Positions 464-20,219 of a DNA stretch of 35,049 bases are shown here, piece after piece. Each line of letters begins with the position of its first letter. Position 1 is the first letter of the stretch. The notes beneath the pieces are model-generated. The model was given only the letters and a program-made list of their open reading frames with translations. It did not search any database and was not told the DNA's origin. Location of the stretch: assembly GCA_023150835.1 (NCBI GenBank), contig JAKLKB010000062.1, positions 1 to 35,049 on the forward strand, in the 5' to 3' direction. This DNA comes from Myxococcota bacterium. Its GTDB lineage: Bacteria > Myxococcota_C > UBA6777. The position numbers and the translations under genes are program-made.

Positions 464-3400
464 TTAGGGAGTTTTGGGTGGGCCTTTGCGCATACGGACG
501 ACGTTGTAGAACTGTTTGAGTCCGTAGGCGGTTTGATCGTTGGGTGTTTCAACGAAGTTGGCGACGACGAGGAGGATATTGCGGAGGTCTTGGACATCGA
601 GAGGGGCGGGAGAACCGGGGGAAAAGCGGTTGACGGTGGAGAAGAGAGAAGGGAAGACGCCGATGTTGTAGGAGTCGCGCAAGGGGTGAGCGACGGCGGC
701 GTTTTTGATGATTTCGAGTAAGGTGCCTTTTTGGTCGAGGGGGAGGGAGGCGTGGAGGAAGCCGAGGGTACGGGCGACGATCTCTTGGCGAGTTTGGAGG
801 ATGCGTCCAAGATAACGGGCGATGGGGACGCGGATCTTGTCGGGTACAGGGGTGAGGAGTTCGGCAGCCATCGCGAGGATCTCACCGAAGGATTGGGGAT
901 CTTCTTCGGGTTTGGGTAGAAGGTGGACGAGGAGATCGGTGGCGAGTTGAAGGAGGGGGCGTTCTTGGGTGAAGGCTTCGAACAGATCGAGTGCAGCGGG
1001 GATCATGGGATCGGTGAGAAGTTCGACGAGTGTGTCTTCGGTGCGTTTGAGGAAAGGCCCCCATTGGCCGGCTTTGTTTTGTTTGTCGATGTATTGGGCG
1101 GCGTAGTCGAGGAGTTTGATCAAGACGATGGGAGCGCGTCGGTTTTTGAAGCGTGCGGTCGGGCCTTCGCCTTCGGTTTGGAGGATCAGATCATAGAGTG
1201 CGTGGATCGCGCCAAGCCAAGCGTCCCGGGCGGTTTGTTTGGCGTCCCCATCGAGGGCTTTGGCCATTTCGGTGAGGTCATCCCACAAACGTCCAGCGAT
1301 GGTGTTTCGGATGGTGCTTTTAGGTTTTCCGATCAAGAAGGCGAGGTAGGACTGAAAGAAGGTGATGGCTTTGGGTGCGCCTTGGGCGTCGGATATCGGG
1401 AGTTTTTGGAGGATGGCGCTCCATTTTTCGAGGTGTTCAAGGATCTGCGTTTCTTTGGTGGCATCGAGCAGGACGGGTTCGATGCTGCGGAGGTTGGTGC
1501 GGGGTTGCGGATAAACGGGCTTTCCGTCTTTGGTTTGGTGTTGGTTGGAGTTGGAGCCCCAATGTCTGTGGAGGACGCCAAGGAGGTCAAGGAAGCGTTC
1601 GAGTTTGTTGTATTTGTGGAAGACTTGGGCGATGGGTTTGAGTGCGCCGCCATCTTTTCCGATCAGGCCGGATGCGAGGCCGGAAAGCAAAGCATCGCCT
1701 TGCCAGTTGCGAACTTCGTAGCCTTCTTTGCCGATGATCGGCTTCATTTTGATGGTGAGTTTGAGTCCGGCCACAAGGGGGACGTTTTCAAAGACGAGAT
1801 CGCGGTTAAGGAAGAGGCCGAGTTGTTCGGGGTCGGGGGCTTCGGCAAGGCCCATGGCAGGGAGAGATTGACGGAGTTGATCTTTGATGAAGCCTTCTTC
1901 GATGGGGTTGCCGTTGACGTAGACGATCTCCCAGATGCTGGCTTTGCCGATGAGTGCGCGAAGATAGAAGAGGGCGAGGTTGTCGATGCGCATCTCAAAG
2001 AAGGGCAAGTCGACGTTTCCCGGGCCTTCAAGTTTAGAGAGGTAGCTGTGTTTGTTGACGTCGGCGAGTAGGTGAAGAACGCGCTGAAAGTGCGAGCGGT
2101 TGCCTTCGATATCAGCGGATTTGAAGTCGACGCGGTCTTTGAAGACAGCGCTGTCTTTTCCGGTGTTTTTGAAGTTTTCGTAATCTTGTGGTGTGACTGT
2201 GCCTTTGTATTCGAGGAGGTTGACAAAGGCGCGCTTGACTTGGGGGACAAGACCGGGGGTTTGGAGGGCGAGCAAGAGATCATCAAAAAACCCGGGGGTA
2301 TCGATGATCTCTTGGAAGATGGGGAGGATATCTTCAAACAGAGAGCTTTCGAGGCGGACGTTGACGGTGTGTCGATCGGCGATCTTGGAGACTTGTTCGA
2401 GGAGGGCGAGGAGTTGGGCAAAATCGCTTTCGTGTTTGCGTGTGATCTGTGCGACAGCTTGGACGACTTTGTCGAGGTTCTGTCCGAGGAGCGCGGCGAA
2501 ACCTGTGCGGAGGGTGCGGATGATCGGGCTTTTGTCGGAGTAGGCTTGTCGTTGTGCATCGAGGGGTTCGAGCAGGGGGCGGATCCCGACGGTGAGGTTG
2601 AAAGGGAAGGGGATACGGTTGTCTTTGAGGGGAAGGTCACGCAGCAAGAGGGAGCCTGTGTCACCGAGCATACTTCCGAGGACGGTTTGAGAGAGGTCGC
2701 GGGTGTCGTAGACAGGCTTTCCGTTGGCGAGGGCTTCTCCGCAAAGGCCGCGTCCGTCGGTGTTGCGGGGGCCAAAGGGGGTGGGTGGATTGGAGAGGCC
2801 CGCGCCTTCTTGGGTGCGGATGGGGTTTCCTTCGAGATCGATGCGCAAGACGCAGCGTTTTCCGAGATTTTGGTGAGAGAGGCCGGGATCTTCTTGGAGG
2901 AGAAGATCGGCGATCAGGCTGGTGCCTTGAGTTTCGCGGCTGTTGTTGGTGCGGCTGAGCCAGTCGCCCGCTGTTTCGAGCAGTCGGGCAAGATGGCGAT
3001 CTTCGCCCGGGGCGGGTGTGACGCCATTGTCGGCGAGTCCATCGCGAGCGCGAAGGAAAGCGACGCCTTTTTCCATGAGTTCGCGGATCTTGGGGAAAGA
3101 GACGACACGGCGGAGGATACTGGCTTGTCCTTTGAGCAGAGGAGGAGAAAGGCCGACGCGCAAGAGCAAAAGGTAAACGGCCTCCATGAGGGCTTGATCT
3201 TGGAGGGCATCGGTCATGGTGAGCGCGAGCACGCGGGTGAGAGCGGGCATGGTGTCGTTGTCGTGGAGGGGAAGCAGTGCGCGCAGAAAGGCTTCGAGGT
3301 CGGCGACCATCGCGGGGGGGACGATCTTGTTGATGGCGACGATGATCTCTTCGCGCATAGCTTGGACAGCTTTGACGCGCTGTGCGGAGAGCGTAGGGTG

Positions 3401-3685
3401 ATAACTGGCCTCACGCTCAATGTATTTGTAGATCTCAAGGCCGAGATCGCGTTGTGCGGGTGGAGTGTAGGGCTGGCTGGGGGCGCCGCGTCCGTCGGGC
3501 ATGGGATCGACGCACGCATGAAGCGAAAAGATCCCGAATCCTACGAAAAAAAATAGGGTGATGCGCAAGAAAGCACTTCGCCATGCTTTTGTGTTTGTGG
3601 TAGGTTGGCAGCGTCGGTGTGCTGAGGAACGATTGGAGGTCGCCTTGTTGGGCGAACGAAGATGGCGAGTACTGGTTGTGTTCAT
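464..3685 (-). CDS. Large helical lipoprotein of unknown function (1073 aa)
   Basis: I do not recognise a named family. The protein starts with a long basic N-region (about 35 residues), then a hydrophobic stretch ending in SLHAC, so Cys58 is a plausible lipidation site and the protein is probably anchored in the envelope. The rest looks mainly alpha-helical, with many amphipathic leucine-rich segments and no transmembrane helices. The ATG at 3685 was chosen because the signal sequence follows it and an AAGG-like ribosome site lies about 10 bases upstream; the reading frame is open further upstream (to 3811), but that extension carries no signal-like features. It is transcribed divergently from the amidohydrolase lipoprotein gene. 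Two long opposite-strand frames (923-2071 and 2072-3556) lie across it; I treat these as shadows of codon bias. Existence of the gene is likely; function is unknown. Confidence 0.8.
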   Translation of the reverse strand: MNTTSTRHLRSPNKATSNRSSAHRRCQPTTNTKAWRSAFLRITLFFFVGFGIFSLHACVDPMPDGRGAPSQPYTPPAQRDLGLEIYKYIEREASYHPTLSAQRVKAVQAMREEIIVAINKIVPPAMVADLEAFLRALLPLHDNDTMPALTRVLALTMTDALQDQALMEAVYLLLLRVGLSPPLLKGQASILRRVVSFPKIRELMEKGVAFLRARDGLADNGVTPAPGEDRHLARLLETAGDWLSRTNNSRETQGTSLIADLLLQEDPGLSHQNLGKRCVLRIDLEGNPIRTQEGAGLSNPPTPFGPRNTDGRGLCGEALANGKPVYDTRDLSQTVLGSMLGDTGSLLLRDLPLKDNRIPFPFNLTVGIRPLLEPLDAQRQAYSDKSPIIRTLRTGFAALLGQNLDKVVQAVAQITRKHESDFAQLLALLEQVSKIADRHTVNVRLESSLFEDILPIFQEIIDTPGFFDDLLLALQTPGLVPQVKRAFVNLLEYKGTVTPQDYENFKNTGKDSAVFKDRVDFKSADIEGNRSHFQRVLHLLADVNKHSYLSKLEGPGNVDLPFFEMRIDNLALFYLRALIGKASIWEIVYVNGNPIEEGFIKDQLRQSLPAMGLAEAPDPEQLGLFLNRDLVFENVPLVAGLKLTIKMKPIIGKEGYEVRNWQGDALLSGLASGLIGKDGGALKPIAQVFHKYNKLERFLDLLGVLHRHWGSNSNQHQTKDGKPVYPQPRTNLRSIEPVLLDATKETQILEHLEKWSAILQKLPISDAQGAPKAITFFQSYLAFLIGKPKSTIRNTIAGRLWDDLTEMAKALDGDAKQTARDAWLGAIHALYDLILQTEGEGPTARFKNRRAPIVLIKLLDYAAQYIDKQNKAGQWGPFLKRTEDTLVELLTDPMIPAALDLFEAFTQERPLLQLATDLLVHLLPKPEEDPQSFGEILAMAAELLTPVPDKIRVPIARYLGRILQTRQEIVARTLGFLHASLPLDQKGTLLEIIKNAAVAHPLRDSYNIGVFPSLFSTVNRFSPGSPAPLDVQDLRNILLVVANFVETPNDQTAYGLKQFYNVVRMRKGPPKTP

Positions 3686-3980
3686 CACAGGCAACCCTTC
3701 ATGATCGAGAAAGAAACGGCATTCGATGTGGATTTGTGTGCGATTCAGGTTCTGGATGGGTCTTGCGCCGAACGGTCGAAAAGACAGCAAAGGTCTGGAA
3801 TCGCAAAGCATTTGCGTTACACGAGTTTGTGGTGAAAGTCAACCTGTGTCAAGGCATGATCGCCCAAGCTCACATTTGGTTTGAGCGATGGTTCAGGCGA
3901 GTTTGTGTGTTTGCAAGAGACGGGAGGTCGTTTGCAAAGAGCGAGAGATTCGGCTGGATCATCGAAGACAAGGAGCAAGT
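3686..3980. other. Divergent intergenic region between two lipoprotein genes
   Basis: These 295 bases separate two divergent starts and must hold both promoters. On the minus strand a TTGACA and an overlapping TTGACT lie near 3840-3862, but no convincing -10 box follows, so I do not call a promoter. A clear AAGGAG ribosome site at 3969-3974 serves the plus-strand gene. No gene or repeat is seen. Confidence 0.5.
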
Positions 3981-6656
3981 ATGCAGCAAGGATATCAAGC
4001 GCGTCGTTGGTTGGGTTGGGGTGTGTTGTGGTTGTTTGTGTTGTGGGTGGGATTGGGCAGTGCAGCCTGTGGTCGTGATGGCAAAGTGTCGGAAGAACCC
4101 GGCACAGAGACCACCCAACAAGAAAATACCCCCGAAGAACAACTTGGCCAAGAAGAAGCCGTCAGTACGGAAAACACGCCCGAAGAGAAGACTTCTACTC
4201 CTGACGAGGCGGTGTCTACGCCCGATGAGCCGACCTCTCCCCCTGATGGCGGGACGGAAGTGGTCCCCGAAAAAACGGGACCGGATACCCCCCCCAGTCC
4301 CGCAAGCTGCCAAGTCACCCAAGGCACCAACGAAAGCCTGTGGTTTGTCGCGGATCTGCTCACGCCAGAGGGTCTGAAAGAAGGCTGGCATCTGGTGGTG
4401 CAAAGCGGAAAGATCACTTGCGTGGCGGCAGATTGTAGTGCCAAAGCCCCCCAAGGAGCGCACAAATTCACTTGCTCGAACGTGATCCTTAGCCCGGGCC
4501 TGATCAATGCTCACGAACACATGAACTGGTCTTTGGGTGTACCCGGGGCCTATTCGCCTGTGTATGATCACCGCCACGAATGGCGCAAAGGCCAAGATGG
4601 AAAGCCCCGTGTCCCGGCTTCGGGCAACAACGCATCGAGCAAGGCCATCGGATGGGGCGAGTTGCGGATGTTGATGAGCGGGGCCACCAGTATCGCAGGA
4701 TCGACGGGATCTCCCGGCCTGTTGCGCAACTTGGATATCGCTTCTCGCCGAGAAGGATTGCCCGGGGTGGCCTTGTATTCGACCTTTCCGCTGGATGATG
4801 ATGGTGGAGAAAAACTGGCGAGTTCTTGCAATTATCCCGGGACAGGCTACGACAAGATCGCTGATGTCGACAAATCCGATGCGTATCTTCCCCACATCGG
4901 CGAAGGCATCAACGAAGAAGCCTACAACGAATTCCGTTGTTTGAGTGGTGCAGGTCGCGAAGATCTGATCCAAGCCAAGACCGCGATCATCCACGGCATT
5001 GCTGTGCAAGCTTCGGATATCGCGCTGATGGCGCGTCGTGGTGCGTCGTTGATCTGGTCGCCGCGCTCCAATATCTCGCTGTATGGGCATACTGCATCGG
5101 TGGCCTTGTACAAGCGTTTTGGTGTGAATATCGCGCTCGGAACGGACTGGGTGTTGTCGGGTTCGATGAACGTCACCCGCGAACTCCGCTGCGTCGACTT
5201 TTTGAACAAGTATCACTACAACAGCACCTTCACCGATCAAGAGATGGTCGAGATGGTGACGGCCAATGCGGCCCGCGCTACGGGGGTTCATAACTTCGTT
5301 GGATCGTTGAAAGAGGGGATGTTCGCGGATATTACGCTGTTTGCGGCTCCACGCAGCAAGGGCTATCGAGCCGTGATCGATGCTCGCCCCGAAGATACCT
5401 TGTTGGTCTTGCGCGCTGGCAAGGCTCTTTATGGAAACAAAGCCTATCTTGAAGGGCTGCTGCCCAACCAAGCCAGCGACTGCGATGTCTTGGATGTCTG
5501 CGGCACACCCAAACGGGCTTGCATCACAGCTGCCGGTATTACCGAGATCAAGAACTTCGCAGACCTCGAAACCTACGCCAAAACCAACAATGCTTATCCG
5601 CTGTTTGTGTGCGACGATCAAACGCCCAAAGATGAACCAAGCTGCAAACCCACCCGCGCCGGACAATTCGGACAAAGCGATCCCAATGACCGTGACGGCG
5701 ACGGCATCCCCAACGCCCAAGACAACTGCCCCGATATCTTTAACCCGATCCGCCCGATGGACAAAGGCAAACAAGCCGACGCAGACGGCGATGGTCTCGG
5801 CGATTCCTGCGATCCTTGCCCGTTGACTCCAAACTCGACGCAATGCACAGGCTTTGATCCCAACGACCGCGACGGTGACGGAAAGCCCAACGCCCAAGAC
5901 AACTGCCCTTACGTCGCCAACCCCGATCAAGCGGACAAAGACGGCGATGGCATCGGAGATGTCTGCGATCCTTGTCCTGACGCCAAAACCAACCCGGGCG
6001 ATCCTTGCCCTGCAACCGCCCAAACCATCTACGATATCAAGCAAAAGAAACTACCCAAAGGAACCCGCGTCAAGCTTGTAAACGTCCTTGTAACGGGCGT
6101 CGAGATCACCACGTCGAACCGCGTCTTTGTGCAGATGAAACAAGGCGATCCCGGATACAACGGAGCCGATTATTCGGGCGTCATGGTCTATCTGGGCGAC
6201 AAATCTTTGACGCCGATCCCCACGATGAAAGCTGGAGATCGCGTGACACTTGAAGGCACAACCGACGAGTTCAGCGGCCAGATCCAGATCAACAAGATCA
6301 CCACCCTGACCGTCACTCCCGGTACCGAGGCCCTCCCTGCTGCGGTGGTTGTCAAAGTTAGCGATATCAACGCAACCACCGCCACCCGCGCCGCTGCCCT
6401 CGAAGGTGTGATCGTCAAGATCGAAGCGGTCGAAGTCACCAACGCCAATCCCGACGGCCCCGCCAACGATTACAAAGAATTCTCCGTCGCCGAAACCGCA
6501 AACAAATCAGCCCAGATCCGCATCGACGATCTGTTCGTCGCCATGACTTACGTCCGAACTGTCGGTGACAAGTTCACTTCCATCACGGGAACCCTCGGCC
6601 TCACCTTCGGCAACTACAAGATCATGCCCGCCAAAGAAGCCGATATGATCCGCTAA
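3981..6656 (+). CDS. Amidohydrolase-superfamily lipoprotein with TSP3 calcium repeats (891 aa)
   Basis: The ATG follows AAGGAG by six bases. A basic start and hydrophobic core end in GSAAC, giving Cys30 as lipobox Cys. A Pro/Glu/Thr-rich linker (about 31-108) leads to an amidohydrolase domain of the chlorohydrolase/cytosine deaminase-like group. The metal-ligand pattern is intact: H178-x-H180 (NAHEH), H305 in PHIGEG, H338 in IIHG and D389 in LGTDW. Residues about 566-668 hold thrombospondin type 3-like repeats ([15 protein letters not shown] and variants) that normally bind calcium. A C-terminal beta-rich domain (about 680-891) resembles secreted OB-fold-like modules. The enzyme would hydrolyse a C-N or C-Cl type bond outside the cytoplasm; the substrate cannot be read from sequence. 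The fusion of a lipid-anchored hydrolase to TSP3 repeats is unusual. Family call is firm; reaction is open. Confidence 0.92.
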
Positions 6657-6940
6657 TGCAGACAGGCTGGCGGGATGGGGTTTGTGGTGGGATAGGGGGG
6701 GCGCTCTGTCGCTTCACAAAGGGGGCGTTTTCTGATCCGTTGTTCAATGAAAAACAAAGGGATCTGGATCTTTGGGAATGGTTTCCGTATATTGTGGTTT
6801 CTTTGCGCATTCTTGCGGTTGTGTGCAACTTCTGTTATGGGGGTGTGCGAAGTTTGGCGTATCTGAGAAGAATAGGGTTGAGCAGAAAGACGAAGGAAGG
6901 CTTCGGGACGATGGGGCCTTGTGGATACTTGGGAGGTTTT

Positions 6941-9900
6941 ATGAGGAACGTAGTTGTACGGCAGCGATGGTATGCGCTGCTTTCTGTTGTGTTGTTTGGG
7001 ATGTTGTTGTTTGGGGGCCAGTGGGCGTGCAATTGTGGTGGGGACCCGGGCGTGGATGGTGGTGAAGAGACCAGTACCAACGGGGAAAAAGTCGTTGAGA
7101 GCATCTGTCCCAAGCCAAGTGATCCATGCGAAAACAATGCGACTTGCCAAGCGTGCGGGAGTTTGTTGACGTGTATCAAAGGGGTGTGTGTGGATACAGG
7201 CGAACCCTTTGATCTGGATACGATCCCATTTTGCCCGAGCCTTGGGAGTGTTTGTATCGGAAATAGCGATTGTCAAAAGCCCAATTGCAACCCGTTGGAA
7301 TGTCGCAATGGCATCTGTTCGGAAGTGATCCCTGATGTCATACCCGACGAAGAGCGCTGCCCGTTGACTTGTTCGAGCGGTGCGGATTGTTCGGTCAAAG
7401 CGTGTGGTGAGCGGATCGCGTGTCTCAACGGCGTGTGCGGTCCTCCGCAACAAAAATGCCCCGACACTTGCACCAGCGACGAACAATGCCGTACGCCCGA
7501 TTGTGGCGAGCGCGTGCGCTGTGTGGCCGGAAAATGCGGTACGATCCAGAAATGCCCTGAAAAATGCGCTTCGGATGCCGAGTGCCAACAAGCGACCTGC
7601 GGCACCAAGATCGCCTGTAAAGAAGGCGTGTGCAGCGAGCCTGATTCCAACACGGCTCCCGTCGCGGTGATTGATCCGATCCGCGATGCGCCTCAAGTCG
7701 GCAATCGCATCACGATGGACGGGCGCAACAGCAAAGACGCAGACGGCGACACCTTGACCTTCCGTTGGCGGATCACCAAACGCCCCCAAGGAAGCCAAGC
7801 CAGCTTCGACAACAACGCGATCTCGACACCTGCGTTCATCCCCGACTTTGCGGGGATCTACACCATCGAACTGATCGTCAACGACGGAAAAGTCGATAGC
7901 AAGCCCGCGACCGTCGATTTGGATATCAAAAACAGCGCGCTCCCTCCTCCCGTCCTCAACGCACTCGCTCCCAACGAAGCCACCGCCGATCGACTGCCGC
8001 TTAACGTCTCGTTGTTTGGTGCAAACTTCCGACCAGACTCCAAAGTGACGGTCGATGGGGCAGGACAGAGCGTCACCTTTGTGAACAGCGCTGAACTCAG
8101 CATCAAGGCCAGCGGCTTGAGTGTCGGAACCCACAAGATCCAAGTCGAAAATGCAGACGGCCAAAAGAGCGCGATCTTGGACTTTGTGGTCAAGGCCAAA
8201 GTCGCCCAAGCACCGCGCATCGATGCGCTTGATCCTTCGCAGATCGAGTCGGGTACGCCCATCCAGTTCAAGATCTTTGGTGAGTTCTTTGTGTCTGGAG
8301 CTACCGCAACCCTCGCTGGGAACGTGTTTTCCGTCACCTTCAACTCTTCCAAAGAGCTTTCTGGACTGACTGCGGTGGCCCTGATGGTCGGCACCTACGA
8401 TGTACAAGTGACCAACCCCGACGGCCAAAAGAGCAATGTCGTCAAGCTGACGATCACGCCCCAAAAACCCGTCTTGAAGCTGATCAGCCTTTCTCCCACA
8501 GAGATCTTTGCAGGCGTGAAAACCGCCCTCAAAGTGACGGGCGATGCCTTTGTGGCGGGAGCCGTACTGGTGATCGCGGGCCAACGCTTCGCAGCCACCA
8601 GCGTGACGCAAACAAACATGGAAGTCGATGTCCTCCTTGCGACCGCAGGAACGTACACCGTCGTCGTTCAAAACCCCGATGGTAGCACCACCAACGCCTT
8701 GCAACTGATCGTCAAGAACGCTGCACCCAAGCTGAGTTTTGTCGATCCCGCGCAAGTCCAAGAGTTTACGCCGATCACCTTGCGTCTGAACGGCACAGGC
8801 TTCTTGAGTGGCGCACAAGGTCGCCTCAATGGCTCGGCCTATCCAACGACCTTTGTGTCCACAACAGAGATCCGCGTCACCTTGCCCGATACCGTGAAGG
8901 CCGGTACTTACAGCGTCGATGTGTTGAACCCCGACAACCAAGCGAGCAACACCGTCACCTTGACCGTGACGCCCAAGCCGCCCGCACCCAAGATCGCGAC
9001 CATTGTCCCTGCTCGCGTCGAACAAGGCGCAGGCACCGAGATCACCGTCAGCGGAAGTGACTTTGTTAGTGGCGCTCAGATCCAGATCGGGCCACGCCTG
9101 CTCAACGCGACCTTCGACAGCGCCAACACGCTTCGTATCAAAGTCCCCACCGACCTTGTCGCAGGAAATTATCCTGTGGTGGTGTTCAATCCCGACGGCC
9201 AAAAGAGCAACACAGGAACCATCGAGATCTTCCGTTCCCCTCCACCCGTCCTCAACTCGATCGATCCAACCACCGCAGAAGTTGGAAAAGCCCTGACCAT
9301 CGAGTTCAAAGGCAGCAACTTCCGCTCTGGTTCTGTGACGGTCTTCCAAGGAGCCGCACAGACCACCGCGTTTGTGGATGCGCAAACCTTGCGGATGACG
9401 ATCTCGCTCAATGGTGTAAGCGCCGGAACCTACGAGGTTTGGGTGGAAAACCCTGACGGCCAGATCTCCCAAAAACTCAAGTTCACGGTCACAGCCCCCC
9501 AAGGACCGCAGATCGTTCAGCTCCTGCCCAAAGACGGAACCACCAACACCAAAGTCAACGGGATCGTCGATGGACGGGGCTTTGTGACGGGTGCAAAAGT
9601 GCTCTTTAACGGCCAAGCCATGACCACCACCTTTATCAATGCCTCGTCTCTTGGCGTGGTGTACGACCTCAACAACATCGCCGCAGGCACGTATCCTGTG
9701 GTGGTCGAAAACCCCGATGGTAAGCGTTCTAACGCCGCCTTCTTTACCGTCTCGGGACAAAAGCTGCCTGCACCGATCTTGATCTCGGTCACCCCCACCA
9801 CCATCAAACTTAGCTCCAACCAACCGATCTATCTCAACGGCCAGCACTTCCAATCGGGTGCTGTGATGTCGCTGCAATTGCCCTTTGTTGGGGCGGTTGG

Positions 9901-10054
9901 ACTTCCCACCAACTACATCAACGACACTCTTTTGATCGTCACCGCGCAACTTCCAAGTATTCCTTTCCCCTTCCCCCCTCAGCGCGTCCAAGTCTACATC
10001 ACCAACCCCGACGGCCAACGCAGCAACAGTCTCCAAGTCACCGTCGAGCGATAA
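6941..10054 (+). CDS. Cys-rich, PKD-like and multi-TIG/IPT surface lipoprotein (1037 aa)
   Basis: ATG at 6941 is preceded by GGGAGG at 6931-6936. The frame is open upstream to 6656, but that extension lacks a start signal. A hydrophobic segment ends in GQWAC; the -3 residue is not the usual Leu, so lipidation is likely but not certain. Five Cys-rich repeats of the form CP..C..D..C....CG....C..G.C follow, then a PKD/REJ-like domain (NTAPVAVIDP to about DGKVDSKPATVDLDI). Eight TIG/IPT immunoglobulin-like repeats then run to the C-terminus, most ending in NPDGQ(K/R)SN or a close variant. Such proteins are usually surface adhesins or scaffolds. No catalytic domain is visible. It follows the amidohydrolase in the same direction after 284 bases with no obvious gene. 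The 1127-aa opposite-strand frame across it is an artefact of the repeats. Confidence 0.92.
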   Translation: MRNVVVRQRWYALLSVVLFGMLLFGGQWACNCGGDPGVDGGEETSTNGEKVVESICPKPSDPCENNATCQACGSLLTCIKGVCVDTGEPFDLDTIPFCPSLGSVCIGNSDCQKPNCNPLECRNGICSEVIPDVIPDEERCPLTCSSGADCSVKACGERIACLNGVCGPPQQKCPDTCTSDEQCRTPDCGERVRCVAGKCGTIQKCPEKCASDAECQQATCGTKIACKEGVCSEPDSNTAPVAVIDPIRDAPQVGNRITMDGRNSKDADGDTLTFRWRITKRPQGSQASFDNNAISTPAFIPDFAGIYTIELIVNDGKVDSKPATVDLDIKNSALPPPVLNALAPNEATADRLPLNVSLFGANFRPDSKVTVDGAGQSVTFVNSAELSIKASGLSVGTHKIQVENADGQKSAILDFVVKAKVAQAPRIDALDPSQIESGTPIQFKIFGEFFVSGATATLAGNVFSVTFNSSKELSGLTAVALMVGTYDVQVTNPDGQKSNVVKLTITPQKPVLKLISLSPTEIFAGVKTALKVTGDAFVAGAVLVIAGQRFAATSVTQTNMEVDVLLATAGTYTVVVQNPDGSTTNALQLIVKNAAPKLSFVDPAQVQEFTPITLRLNGTGFLSGAQGRLNGSAYPTTFVSTTEIRVTLPDTVKAGTYSVDVLNPDNQASNTVTLTVTPKPPAPKIATIVPARVEQGAGTEITVSGSDFVSGAQIQIGPRLLNATFDSANTLRIKVPTDLVAGNYPVVVFNPDGQKSNTGTIEIFRSPPPVLNSIDPTTAEVGKALTIEFKGSNFRSGSVTVFQGAAQTTAFVDAQTLRMTISLNGVSAGTYEVWVENPDGQISQKLKFTVTAPQGPQIVQLLPKDGTTNTKVNGIVDGRGFVTGAKVLFNGQAMTTTFINASSLGVVYDLNNIAAGTYPVVVENPDGKRSNAAFFTVSGQKLPAPILISVTPTTIKLSSNQPIYLNGQHFQSGAVMSLQLPFVGAVGLPTNYINDTLLIVTAQLPSIPFPFPPQRVQVYITNPDGQRSNSLQVTVER

Positions 10055-14866: not shown

Positions 14867-16957
14867 TCAATCACACATCTCTCGGAGATCGCATGACGCG
14901 GTTGGATTTGGTTGGGTGGGACGGGGGCGAAGAGTGCGGCGGCGCAGGAACAAGCCGACGAGTAGGAGCATCCAAAGCGCGCTTTCTGTGTTTTGAGCGA
15001 TGGGTCCGATCTGGCAGCTACAGCCGCTTTTTCCCGTTCCGCTGGCGACGCATTGACCGTTGAGGCAGTTTTGGCCTGTTGCGCAGTCCGAGGCGAGGGT
15101 GCAGCCTGTTTTGGGCTTGGCTTGACAGATGCCGTTGATGCAATCGAGACCGTTGGTGCATTGGGCAGCGCTTTGGCAGCCTTGGGGGGGCGTTCCTGTG
15201 CAAGTACACGCACCAAAGCTCTTGCCATCGGCGTTACAGGACTGACTGCCATTTTTGCCATCGGTGCAAACGCAGCCTTGGCTGACGCCCGGGACGCAGG
15301 CTTGGGGCGCATCGCAAGGGCAAGCATCAAAGCCCGAACCATCGGCTTTGCACGTGGTGGTTTTGGTCCCGTTGGGGCAAACACAAGCGATCGTTTGGTT
15401 GGGGGTGCAAGTTCCTGTGGGGGTGCAAACGCAGTCTGTAAAGCCCGACGCATCGGACTTGCAGGATTGGGTTCCATTTTTTCCGTCAGTGCAAACACAA
15501 GCGCGGCTTTGGTTGGGTGTGCAAGATTGGGGGCCTGTGCAAGTACAAGTCTCAAAGCCCGAACCATCGGGCTTGCAGGACTGGCTGCCATTTTTGCCGT
15601 CCGTGCAGACGCAGCCTTGGGATGCGCCCGGGGTGCAGGCTTTTTTGGGTTGGCATTGGGCATTTTGGCAGACATGATCGGCGGGGCAGTCGGTGTCTTT
15701 TGTGCATCCTGTGGTGGAGGTTTTGCAGGTGCCGTTGTCACAGCGTTGACCTTGCGGGCAGTCGGCGTCTTTTGTGCATCCTGTGGTTTTGTCTTTGCAG
15801 ATACCGTTGTCGCAGAACTTCCCGACGGGACAATCGCTGTCTTGTCGGCAGCCCGAGGCGATGTTGCAAGCACCACCGATACAGCGCTCACCGGCCTTAC
15901 AATCTGCATCGCTGTTGCAGGTTCCCGGGCGGGGCTTGCACGTGCCGTTGTCGCAGATCTCGCGCAAGTTGCACTCGCTGTCTTGGGTGCAAAAGGGGAC
16001 GATATCGCACTTTCCGTTGACGCATTTTTGTTTGCTCGGACAATCGGTGTCTTTTGTGCAAGCGGAGCCTTTGCAGACAAAACCGGGTGGGAGGCATTGG
16101 GCGTTGTAGCTCGATCCGTTGCAGCTATATCCCGAAGGGCAGAGTCCATCGAAGTTACAAAGCTGGATGCAGAAATTGCCCGTCCCTACGAAGTCACAGG
16201 TCATCCCTGCACCGCAGTCTTGGGTGGTATTGCAGGGCTTGCAAGCGTTTGGCAAAGGGGCAGGCGGAGCAGAAACGCAACTGGCCTGTTGGCAAGCGAG
16301 TTGCGATGGGCAGTCGGTGTCTTGGGCGCATTGGGGTTGTCCTGAAGGGTACAGGAAACAGGCTCCTGCGATATCATCGGGGTGCAGGCTGCGTTTTTTG
16401 ATCGCCCCCGGGTAAAACGTCCCTTCCATCGTCGAAGTGAGGACTTTGCTCGATTGGAGGCCCAACAAAGAACCTGCTGCGACCGTTGCGATACTGATCA
16501 GGTCAAACTGCCCGCTGGTCGGGGTCAATGACCACCCCATCTTCGGGTTGATCGAGACGTCTACTTCGGTGAGTTCGTTCTTTTGGTTGTAAAAGAAGTT
16601 GGGGACAAACACGATGCCTTGTCCGTAGGTCACTTCAAAGTTCCCCGGAAATCCGACGACGTTGGTGCTGTCGCCACGCACAGGGAGTTGGGTGGTGGGG
16701 CCGCGATAAAGGAAGCTGATCTGGGCGCACTTGATCTTGGTCCATTCGGAAAAAGCGTCTTGAAAGATCTGTGCGAGTTGGGTTTGCGGGACTTGGGTGT
16801 AAGCGTCGGGGTTGAATTTCCATTCGATGGCTTTTCCCATCGGCCACTTGATGGGGGTTGTGCCGTTTTTCAGGTACTCGTAGGCATGGGCATGATCGGC
16901 CCCAAAGAGCAAAGAACACAAAGCACACAAACGAAACAGAAAATGTAAAGAGCGCAT
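14867..16957 (-). CDS. Secreted Cys-rich protein with catalytically dead matrixin domain and MYXO-CTERM-like tail (696 aa)
   Basis: ATG 16957 is preceded by AAGGAAAAGGAT. A signal peptide ends at AHA-Y (about residue 25). Residues 26-205 look like a matrixin-type (M10) metallopeptidase domain, ending in the typical DDIAGACFLYP block. The zinc motif HExxHxxGxxH is replaced by VAAGSLLGLQS (159-169): both first His, the catalytic Glu and the third His are gone, while G166 and the Met near 177 remain. It should therefore bind or scaffold rather than cleave. From about 210 onward come many C-x-x-D-x-D-C-type Cys-rich repeats and C-x-C-T-D-G-K-N-G repeats. The C-terminus has CSC, a hydrophobic helix (ALWMLLLVGLFL) and RRR, as in MYXO-CTERM sorting tails, but with about 20 extra residues after the Arg cluster. 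Confidence 0.88.
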   Translation of the reverse strand: MRSLHFLFRLCALCSLLFGADHAHAYEYLKNGTTPIKWPMGKAIEWKFNPDAYTQVPQTQLAQIFQDAFSEWTKIKCAQISFLYRGPTTQLPVRGDSTNVVGFPGNFEVTYGQGIVFVPNFFYNQKNELTEVDVSINPKMGWSLTPTSGQFDLISIATVAAGSLLGLQSSKVLTSTMEGTFYPGAIKKRSLHPDDIAGACFLYPSGQPQCAQDTDCPSQLACQQASCVSAPPAPLPNACKPCNTTQDCGAGMTCDFVGTGNFCIQLCNFDGLCPSGYSCNGSSYNAQCLPPGFVCKGSACTKDTDCPSKQKCVNGKCDIVPFCTQDSECNLREICDNGTCKPRPGTCNSDADCKAGERCIGGACNIASGCRQDSDCPVGKFCDNGICKDKTTGCTKDADCPQGQRCDNGTCKTSTTGCTKDTDCPADHVCQNAQCQPKKACTPGASQGCVCTDGKNGSQSCKPDGSGFETCTCTGPQSCTPNQSRACVCTDGKNGTQSCKSDASGFTDCVCTPTGTCTPNQTIACVCPNGTKTTTCKADGSGFDACPCDAPQACVPGVSQGCVCTDGKNGSQSCNADGKSFGACTCTGTPPQGCQSAAQCTNGLDCINGICQAKPKTGCTLASDCATGQNCLNGQCVASGTGKSGCSCQIGPIAQNTESALWMLLLVGLFLRRRTLRPRPTQPNPTASCDLREMCD

Positions 16958-18524: not shown

Positions 18525-18650
18525 CGAAGTGTAACACTGCTTTCGCGAAAAGCCTTGTTTATGCAAATAACTCGAATCCGAACGGGGCGCAAGGCTTTGT
18601 ACCGTGAGGCAGGCCGAGACAAAGCGTCCAACCGCGTAAGCCCCATCTTA
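18525..18650 (-). repeat. Possible degenerate copy of the dispersed repeat
   Basis: GTAACACTGCTTTCGCGAAA followed by AGCCTTGTTTATGCA resembles one terminus of copy D (GTTACGCAGTCGCCAAAAAA then GCCGTGTTCGCA), and CAACCGCGTAAG near 18631 matches the other terminus exactly. The interior has drifted. It occupies the gap between the caspase-like and ARPP-1 genes. Confidence 0.4.
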
Positions 18651-20219
18651 ATAAAGGCGCGTGGTGTTGTGTGGTGTCGATGGAAGCGGTGGTGTGGAGT
18701 GGACGGCGGGGGACGACGATGGAGCGGGTGTGTGAGGGCGGGTGGCGGTGATCGCGGAGGGCGGGTGGTTGTGTTGGTGATGGAGGATAAAAAAGACGGT
18801 AGCGGCGAGGCTTGCGGCGAGGGTGATACCGAGGGCGGTGGTTCCGCCGATATTGGTGCGTGTCGAGGCATCGACAAGAGATTGATCGATCATGCCTGTT
18901 CCGCCCGATTGTTCGAGGGGAGTGCGGGCATCGCCGTACAATTTGTGAGAGACACCGTACAGCGTGCCTGTGGCGACGGCTCCTGCAAGCGTCACCCCAA
19001 GGGCAGCGTAAAAGGCCGTCAGATAGGGGGTGGGTCGTTTGAGTTGCGCGGGGTGAGTGAGCCAAGCGATGCCTTTGTTGGAGGCGGCAGCATAGGAAAG
19101 CAGGCGGCCTTGGAAGCGTTTCAGTCGGTGGGGTTTGCCTTGGTGGAGGTCGATCTGTTTGGATTGATAGCCGCCCTTGCTGCGGTAAATGATGGTGTAC
19201 GAACCCGCCTCAAGGCCAAGATGCACAGGCTCGCCGAGGCGTTTTTTGATCTCCGCAAGCAAAAGCTGTTTTTCAGGTTGGAGGACGTAGTAATGGCCTG
19301 CAAGAGCGGTATCCAAGATCAGGCGGGACGGGGCTTTTTGAGGGTAAGTCAAGATCACATGTCCATGCCCTCGAAAAGACTTGCGGAAGCTTGGGTGTTG
19401 TACACCGCTGGAGAGAAAAAGTGTGTGGGAGATGGTTTTTTGGTAGGTGTAGCTGTAGGCTTCTTCGAGCGTCACAAGGCCGTCTTGGTTGTGATCGGCA
19501 AGGCCACGCAGAGCCGAGATCAGATGGTGAGTAAAGATCGAGCCGCGAAGGCTTTCGAGTTCGTGGGCATCTTCGCCGATACCGCTGGCGGTGAGGATGG
19601 CCTCGCCTTGGAGGGGCGTTTGCCATGCGGAAGGAAGGGCGAAATGGCGCTTGATCCGCCGCGCTCCTTTCAGTCGGAGCATCTGGCCGCTTTGGCAGGT
19701 GTCGAGGATCAAGATGCGCAGGTGAGCCGACGAGCGCCGAAGGATCTCGCGCAGCGTCGGGTAGGCAAGAGCCTGAGAGCCGAGGTGAAGAGCGTGGGGG
19801 TCTGCGTGGCCTGAGTAATAAAACAGCAGGTGTGTGGGGTGGTTGGGATGTCGCTGTCGAAAGGCGCGGATGGCCGCGTCTGTTTGTGAGAGAGCCGCAA
19901 TCAGCGTTTGGGGATCGAGACCGATCAAGCGTTGTATCCGATGTTTTGGGATCCCTCCGATCTCACGCAAGGTTTGGGCCATGCGTAGCGTGTCGCTTTG
20001 GGCGTAGCGCAGCGGGCGATCGCTTGGGTAACCCAGATTGTTCCCCACCAGTACAGCAAAGACCGCAGGGCGTAAAACCCCATCCGTTGGGGACGAACGA
20101 TGTGTTAGCGGTTGGCTGTGTGCGAGCGAGTAGGCGAAGCCGATACCCCACAAGAGCATCCCACACAAAATCCACCGCGTCACACCGAGCAAAGGAAAAA
20201 AACGAAACAAGCGAGACAT
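18648..20219 (-). CDS. Membrane-anchored caspase-like (peptidase C14) protein with EF-hand-like loop (523 aa)
   Basis: ATG 20219 follows GGAGA by about 11 bases. An N-terminal hydrophobic segment (about 9-34) is a signal anchor or signal peptide. The caspase fold begins at RPAVFAVLVGNN; the catalytic dyad is His138 (LLFYYSGHAD) and Cys175 (LILDTCQSG), both intact. An EF-hand-like loop, DHNQDGLVTLEE (242-253), lies before the end of the peptidase domain, as in several bacterial metacaspase-like proteins, and suggests calcium control. A beta-rich region (about 300-400) is followed by two transmembrane helices (AALGVTLAGAVATGTLYGV and ALGITLAASLAATVFFIL) and a Pro/Ser/Thr tail. It is divergent from an ECF sigma gene, which probably shares its regulation. 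Substrates are unknown; related orthocaspases and metacaspases cleave after Arg/Lys. Confidence 0.92.
   Translation of the reverse strand: MSRLFRFFPLLGVTRWILCGMLLWGIGFAYSLAHSQPLTHRSSPTDGVLRPAVFAVLVGNNLGYPSDRPLRYAQSDTLRMAQTLREIGGIPKHRIQRLIGLDPQTLIAALSQTDAAIRAFRQRHPNHPTHLLFYYSGHADPHALHLGSQALAYPTLREILRRSSAHLRILILDTCQSGQMLRLKGARRIKRHFALPSAWQTPLQGEAILTASGIGEDAHELESLRGSIFTHHLISALRGLADHNQDGLVTLEEAYSYTYQKTISHTLFLSSGVQHPSFRKSFRGHGHVILTYPQKAPSRLILDTALAGHYYVLQPEKQLLLAEIKKRLGEPVHLGLEAGSYTIIYRSKGGYQSKQIDLHQGKPHRLKRFQGRLLSYAAASNKGIAWLTHPAQLKRPTPYLTAFYAALGVTLAGAVATGTLYGVSHKLYGDARTPLEQSGGTGMIDQSLVDASTRTNIGGTTALGITLAASLAATVFFILHHQHNHPPSAITATRPHTPAPSSSPAVHSTPPLPSTPHNTTRLY

Follow-up and report, generated by a model that had tools for sequence, protein, structure and literature searches.

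A conserved bacterial lineage of zinc-less matrixins, probably surface-anchored binding proteins

Introduction

A gene on the minus strand of a 35,049-nucleotide stretch of Myxococcota DNA (the whole stretch is hereafter called the window) encodes a predicted secreted protein with a matrixin-type domain, in which the sequence expected as HExxHxxGxxH reads VAAGSLLGLQS, and the question is what such a domain is kept for, if it is kept for anything. Inactive metzincin domains are already known from ADAM11, ADAM22, and ADAM23, which bind LGI proteins by surface residues, ADAM22 engaging LGI1 via the surface of its pseudo-domain (PMC11266112). The table of pseudo-members in a 2024 review on inactive metallopeptidases covers families M1, M12–M16, M24, and M41, with none from M10 (PMC11266112), and sequences lacking HEXXHXXGXXH were all excluded from a study of matrixin evolution published in 2025 (PMC12587646). 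In a literature search of open-licence papers, we found no bacterial lineage of dedicated zinc-less matrixins described, and such a lineage, rather than a pseudo-metzincin as such, is most likely what is new here.

Results and discussion

Architecture of the protein

The first-pass annotation had placed the gene at 14867-16957, and its coordinates, strand, and reading proved correct: a 696-residue frame runs on the minus strand from an ATG at 16957, preceded by AAGGAAAAGGA, to a stop at 14867 (Table 1). The orthologues described below, which together with the window protein are designated lineage A, likewise begin with a hydrophobic stretch, ending HAY. The Cys-rich repeats that had been noted after the domain were found to be TIGR04201 family repeats with DUF7107 and Dickkopf_N matches, and about 15% of the residues in this region are Cys.

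Table 1 Features of the zinc-less matrixin gene and of the neighbouring peptidase gene in the window
Feature	Coordinates	Strand	Basis
Zinc-less matrixin gene, lineage A, 696 aa, predicted secreted	14867..16957	-	ORF translation and orthologues
Signal peptide (MRSLHFLFRLCALCSLLFGADHAHA)	16883..16957	-	Read from sequence
Matrixin-fold domain, residues 25-205	16343..16885	-	Pfam PF00413, AlphaFold2, Z to karilysin
Phe117 replacing conserved Ala of substrate-binding edge strand	16607..16609	-	Alignment column
Degenerate zinc-motif helix VAAGSLLGLQS, residues 159-169 (expected HExxHxxGxxH)	16451..16483	-	Alignment and model
Retained Met-turn Met177, then lineage-specific Gly179 and Phe181	16415..16429	-	Alignment
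Cys-rich repeat region, residues 207-640 (about 430)	15038..16339	-	TIGR04201, DUF7107, Dickkopf_N matches
MYXO-CTERM-like tail, residues 644-674: SGCSC motif, hydrophobic helix, Arg cluster (RRR)	14936..15028	-	TIGR03901 match
Caspase-like Peptidase_C14 gene, predicted secreted	18648..20210	-	Catalytic His/Cys intact

An NCBIfam search of the window protein returned Myxo_Cys_RPT and MYXO-CTERM, each slightly below its own cut-off. The wording "MYXO-CTERM-like", which had been used from the beginning, is thus a fair term, because the TIGR03901 score of 19.3 bits lies just under the cut-off of 20; the G001 orthologue scored 15.6 bits, and for three other orthologues only Myxo_Cys_RPT was reported. 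The same layout of Cys, helix, and Arg is present in the orthologues with a complete C-terminus, and a tail made up of a Cys motif, a hydrophobic helix, and Arg residues is the usual end of the matrixins of the phylum, active and inactive, where the C-terminus is present. The myxosortase MrtX of Myxococcus xanthus processes tails of this type for display at the surface (PMC11980579). The best MrtX-like (CPBP) genes scored 98.6–104.7 bits in four of the five genomes of the phylum against a cut-off of 180, and sub-cut-off matches also occurred in 4 of 14 control genomes. Since both the MYXO-CTERM and the MrtX-like scores are under their cut-offs, sorting by an MrtX-type route is only plausible. 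Judging from the tail, the lineage A protein is probably located at the cell surface.

A matrixin fold with an altered zinc-motif helix

Residues 37–203 of the window protein matched Peptidase_M10 (Pfam PF00413, Matrixin) over profile positions 1–158 of 159 with 25.4 bits against the curated cut-off of 24, which all six lineage A sequences exceeded (25.4–28 bits). An AlphaFold2 model of the domain showed a mean pLDDT of 96.2 and a pTM of 0.92, having been built from an alignment of 55 matrixin domains, in which active relatives prevail and might impose their own fold on the prediction. The best 50 Foldseek matches of this model were all matrixins, and VIA-align gave Z scores of 18.1 for karilysin (2.8 Å over 157 residues) and 18.0 for MMP-7. 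A control AlphaFold model from the six zinc-less rows alone (pLDDT, 77; pTM, 0.78) kept the order of elements unchanged up to the motif helix, with the C-terminal 30 residues poorly predicted, and matrixins again filled the list of its structural matches, with Z up to 14.5 (MMP-13). The altered block lies mostly within the predicted helix 129–141 of the AlphaFold2 model. These results show that the matrixin fold proposed in the first-pass annotation is predicted even from the zinc-less sequences alone, with the altered block as its zinc-motif helix.

Compared with the matrixins of M10A/PF00413 (karilysin, MMP-7, and MMP-8), the window protein shares the whole-domain fold (Z 17–18), the Met-turn Met, the two motif Gly, and the domain end (DDIAGACFLYP), but has no zinc ligand or catalytic Glu and carries a bulky residue in the edge strand. 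It therefore belongs to the matrixin fold family but not to the active M10 peptidases, whose defining motif was looked for and is absent.

Substitutions in and around the emptied site

At the position of VAAGSLLGLQS, paralogues of the same genome read, for example, HEIGHVVGLDH and HEIGHFLGLGH. In the window domain, all four key residues of the motif (three His and one Glu), which are 100% conserved in 44 intact-motif matrixins, are substituted, whereas Gly138, Gly142, Met153 (Met-turn), Leu167, Asp170/171, and Pro180 are kept (domain numbering, which is protein numbering minus 24; Met153 is Met177, the Ala93 column is Phe117, and Phe157 is Phe181). The comparison thus bore out the earlier claim that all the ligands and the catalytic Glu had been lost from intact surroundings. 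Among the columns at least 80% conserved in the 44 active rows, the zinc-less clade retains those of the scaffold; only H135, E136, H139 (His in one row), H145, and A93 are lost throughout, and G103, N113, C176, and Y179 are varied in some zinc-less rows.

Column 93, Ala in active matrixins, is Phe, Met, or Tyr in all six zinc-less orthologues and is aligned to the LAHA edge strand of MMP-8; in matrixins, this strand pairs with the substrate backbone. All six zinc-less rows have the Met-turn methionine and, directly after the turn, Gly155 and Phe157, which occur in 7% and 0% of the active rows, respectively. Judged from sequence positions, this pattern suggests that hydrophobic residues repack the zinc/S1' region emptied in lineage A and would fill the cleft, and binding would therefore use another or a remodelled surface.

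Could the domain nevertheless have kept catalysis through a different metal site or mechanism? Some presumed pseudoenzymes did prove active (PMC11266112), and the clade has five invariant Asp; at least four of these five, however, are also conserved in active paralogues and lie outside the motif. The zinc-binding His residues and the Glu have all been lost, a replacement His site is not evident because no His column is conserved among the six sequences, and Cys is invariant in a single column. We regard retained catalysis as very improbable.

Ancestry and retention of the zinc-less domain

The phylum is sampled by five genomes of three genera in our collection, G000 being that of the window. 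Orthologues were found in G001 (97% identity), G002 (44%), G004 (44%), and, as two tandem copies, G003 (44 and 43%). Their motif helices read VTAGSLLGLQS, VLAGRLLGLAD, VVAGHILGLSS, VAAGLMIGLIP, and YVVGLLIGLSS, so that, with one of the three His retained in the G004 orthologue, the zinc motif is absent from all six lineage A sequences. A sequencing or frame error was ruled out, the loss being common to the orthologues and the frame open; with the orthologues likewise lacking the motif, the loss is not due to chance either. The public records of these relatives are metagenome-assembled genomes labelled Myxococcota, Myxococcales, or Deltaproteobacteria. A scan of genome contigs returned only the same four relatives and one Acidobacteria matrixin with an intact HEMGHCLGLDH, and no further member of lineage A was found outside the phylum in 386 genomes, the motif being read in the fetched loci only.

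Many matrixins with an intact motif are encoded in the same five genomes. In phylogenetic trees, the six zinc-less sequences are monophyletic with 100/100 support and nested among long Cys-rich active paralogues, and both the clade and its nesting were unchanged with the motif columns removed. Lineage A is thus descended from zinc-bearing paralogues. Active MYXO-CTERM-like matrixins of the same genomes (for example, G000:C34 and G000:C77) share with the window protein a signal peptide, a 29–32% identical domain, a Cys-rich region, and, where the C-terminus is present, the Cys-helix-Arg tail, but differ in having HExxHxxGxxH intact.

Between G000 and G001, dN/dS was 0.065 for the domain, 0.082 for the repeats, and 0.10 for the whole gene, and for six pairs of active orthologues from these genomes the range was 0.013–0.066. 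The matrixin domain is under strong purifying selection, as strong as that on the active paralogues, and, its value being comparable to those of the active pairs, it is retained for something. The first-pass annotation had spoken of selection for a binding role; the selection is thus established, whereas the binding role goes beyond what these values say. That the gene is merely decaying without function is scarcely credible: the stem branch of the clade is indeed long (0.87–1.0 changes per column), but the frame is open in all the genomes, the domain is constrained and kept in three genera, and both copies of the tandem duplicate in G003 are zinc-less. Selection and retention refute this explanation.

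A probable surface-anchored pseudo-matrixin

Collectively, the protein is probably a surface-anchored pseudo-matrixin, the N-terminal domain of which would bind a protein or polymer partner instead of acting as an enzyme. The signal peptide would export the protein, the Cys-rich repeats would form a stalk, and the MYXO-CTERM-like tail would anchor it at the cell surface, displaying a matrix-metalloprotease-like domain that presumably can neither hold the catalytic zinc nor activate water. By analogy with the inactive metalloprotease domains of ADAM22 and ADAM23, binding is its most likely function; it is likelier than catalysis because the loss is common to all the orthologues and the fold is under strong selection. 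The pseudoprotease suggested in the first-pass annotation is thereby supported by the fold, the lost catalytic residues, the selection, and the conservation across species. The two outcomes that this annotation had named as contrary evidence, a predicted structure lacking the matrixin fold and orthologues in which the block is something other than the zinc-motif helix, were looked for and not observed.

Alternatively, the pseudo-domain might be only an N-terminal structural cap that aids the folding or secretion of the repeats, which would carry the function. The scaffold is conserved with few clade-specific positions, most lineage-specific changes resemble hydrophobic repacking, and the repeats are also under purifying selection. 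Nevertheless, constraint on the domain equals or exceeds that on the repeats (0.065 versus 0.082), and the domain is collinear, whereas the repeats differ in number and type between genera, and two other zinc-less clades, described below, keep the domain with almost no repeats. We therefore consider the cap unlikely and a binding domain the better explanation.

The binding domain envisaged here would be similar to ADAM11, ADAM22, and ADAM23 in the metzincin fold, the degenerate zinc motif with the retained Met, the Cys-rich downstream domains, and the membrane or surface anchoring; these are, in contrast, animal proteins of family M12, not M10. The iRhom pseudoproteases are alike in the general idea, as inactive protease relatives kept for binding, but have an unrelated rhomboid fold. 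If true, a conserved bacterial zinc-less lineage with active sisters and parallel losses would mean that pseudo-metzincins arose outside animals, and the surface-display architecture common to both kinds would allow active matrixins to be compared cleanly with inactive ones. Genes of this lineage would be labelled matrixins by automatic annotation based on PF00413.

Other zinc-less matrixins

Of the 54 matrixin domains collected, 12 are zinc-less. Besides lineage A, they include clades B and C, short matrixins of the same phylum, each without a complete zinc site, which keep the domain with almost no repeats. Clade B (G004:C3, L064; G003:C176, L066; G002:C131, L067) has GFMLGLWFSE-like helices and a MYXO-CTERM-like tail. 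Clade C (G000:C32:4605-4970, L012; G002:C56, L071; G004:C66, L074) has a Cys-plus-hydrophobic tail; its helices read HEAGKFLGLAE and HEAGRFLGLDT in G002 and G004, and FAVGRWVGLEE, with all the residues lost, in G000. Because HE remains in G002 and G004, with Lys or Arg at the second His position, clade C looks like a partial stage.

In AU tests with the motif columns left out, for groupings named after the motifs had been seen, the hypothesis that A, B, and C arose only once was rejected (p = 0.016), as were joint origins of A and B (p = 0.033) and of A and C (p = 0.022), and a joint origin of B and C was not rejected (p = 0.10). Clades B and C thus apparently lost the zinc site independently of lineage A. 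Among the loci read outside the phylum, the sole zinc-less matrixin was that of an unrelated genome (G187:C36:6567-7097, L116), which reads NEVGKFIGLGS and precedes repeats that lack the Cys-rich pattern; its kinship with lineage A was rejected (AU p = 0.025), and it looks like a separate loss. As a tentative extension, less probable than the binding role itself, the phylum may have converted matrixins anchored at the surface into non-catalytic receptors several times, each time independently (in at least two and probably three clades); lineage A, its cleft refilled, would then be the bacterial equivalent of ADAM22-type receptors and may act with the adjacent caspase-like protein.

Genomic neighbourhood

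The next genes upstream of the zinc-less matrixin gene in the window encode an ARPP-1 domain protein and the Peptidase_C14 protein, with a subtilase further on. In four genomes, the C14 orthologue lies on the strand of lineage A and upstream of it: G000, G004 (at 0.2 kb), G001 (at 1.7 kb), and G003 (at 4.8 kb). Of four orthologue regions that were compared, three (L051, L053, and L054) share C14 as a neighbour, and no other neighbour is shared so widely. This conserved neighbour is a lead, and the C14 protein may be a functional partner of lineage A.

A role in regulating a protease in trans, either the adjacent caspase-like peptidase or the sister matrixins, for which the domain would act as a decoy or competitor, seems rather improbable. 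Pseudoproteases regulating active relatives are well known (PMC11266112), the C14 His/Cys dyad is intact, its linkage recurs in four genomes, and the coordinates compared place no other C14 match closer than 10 kb to another matrixin. In G002, however, the C14 and matrixin genes are on separate contigs, with 610 bases beyond the C14 gene and an opposite-strand gene upstream of the matrixin. Moreover, G000 and G003 also share one more neighbour, an FAD oxidase, so that the C14 linkage may be mere remnant synteny.

This C14 family has 6–22 matches per genome in the phylum. Elsewhere in the window, a 1115-residue frame at 464-3811 (minus strand), a greedy gene call, is without any Pfam match, and two large consecutive frames lie at 3888-10054 (plus strand), the first an amidohydrolase with thrombospondin type 3 repeats and the second containing six TIG domains and Ig-like repeats.
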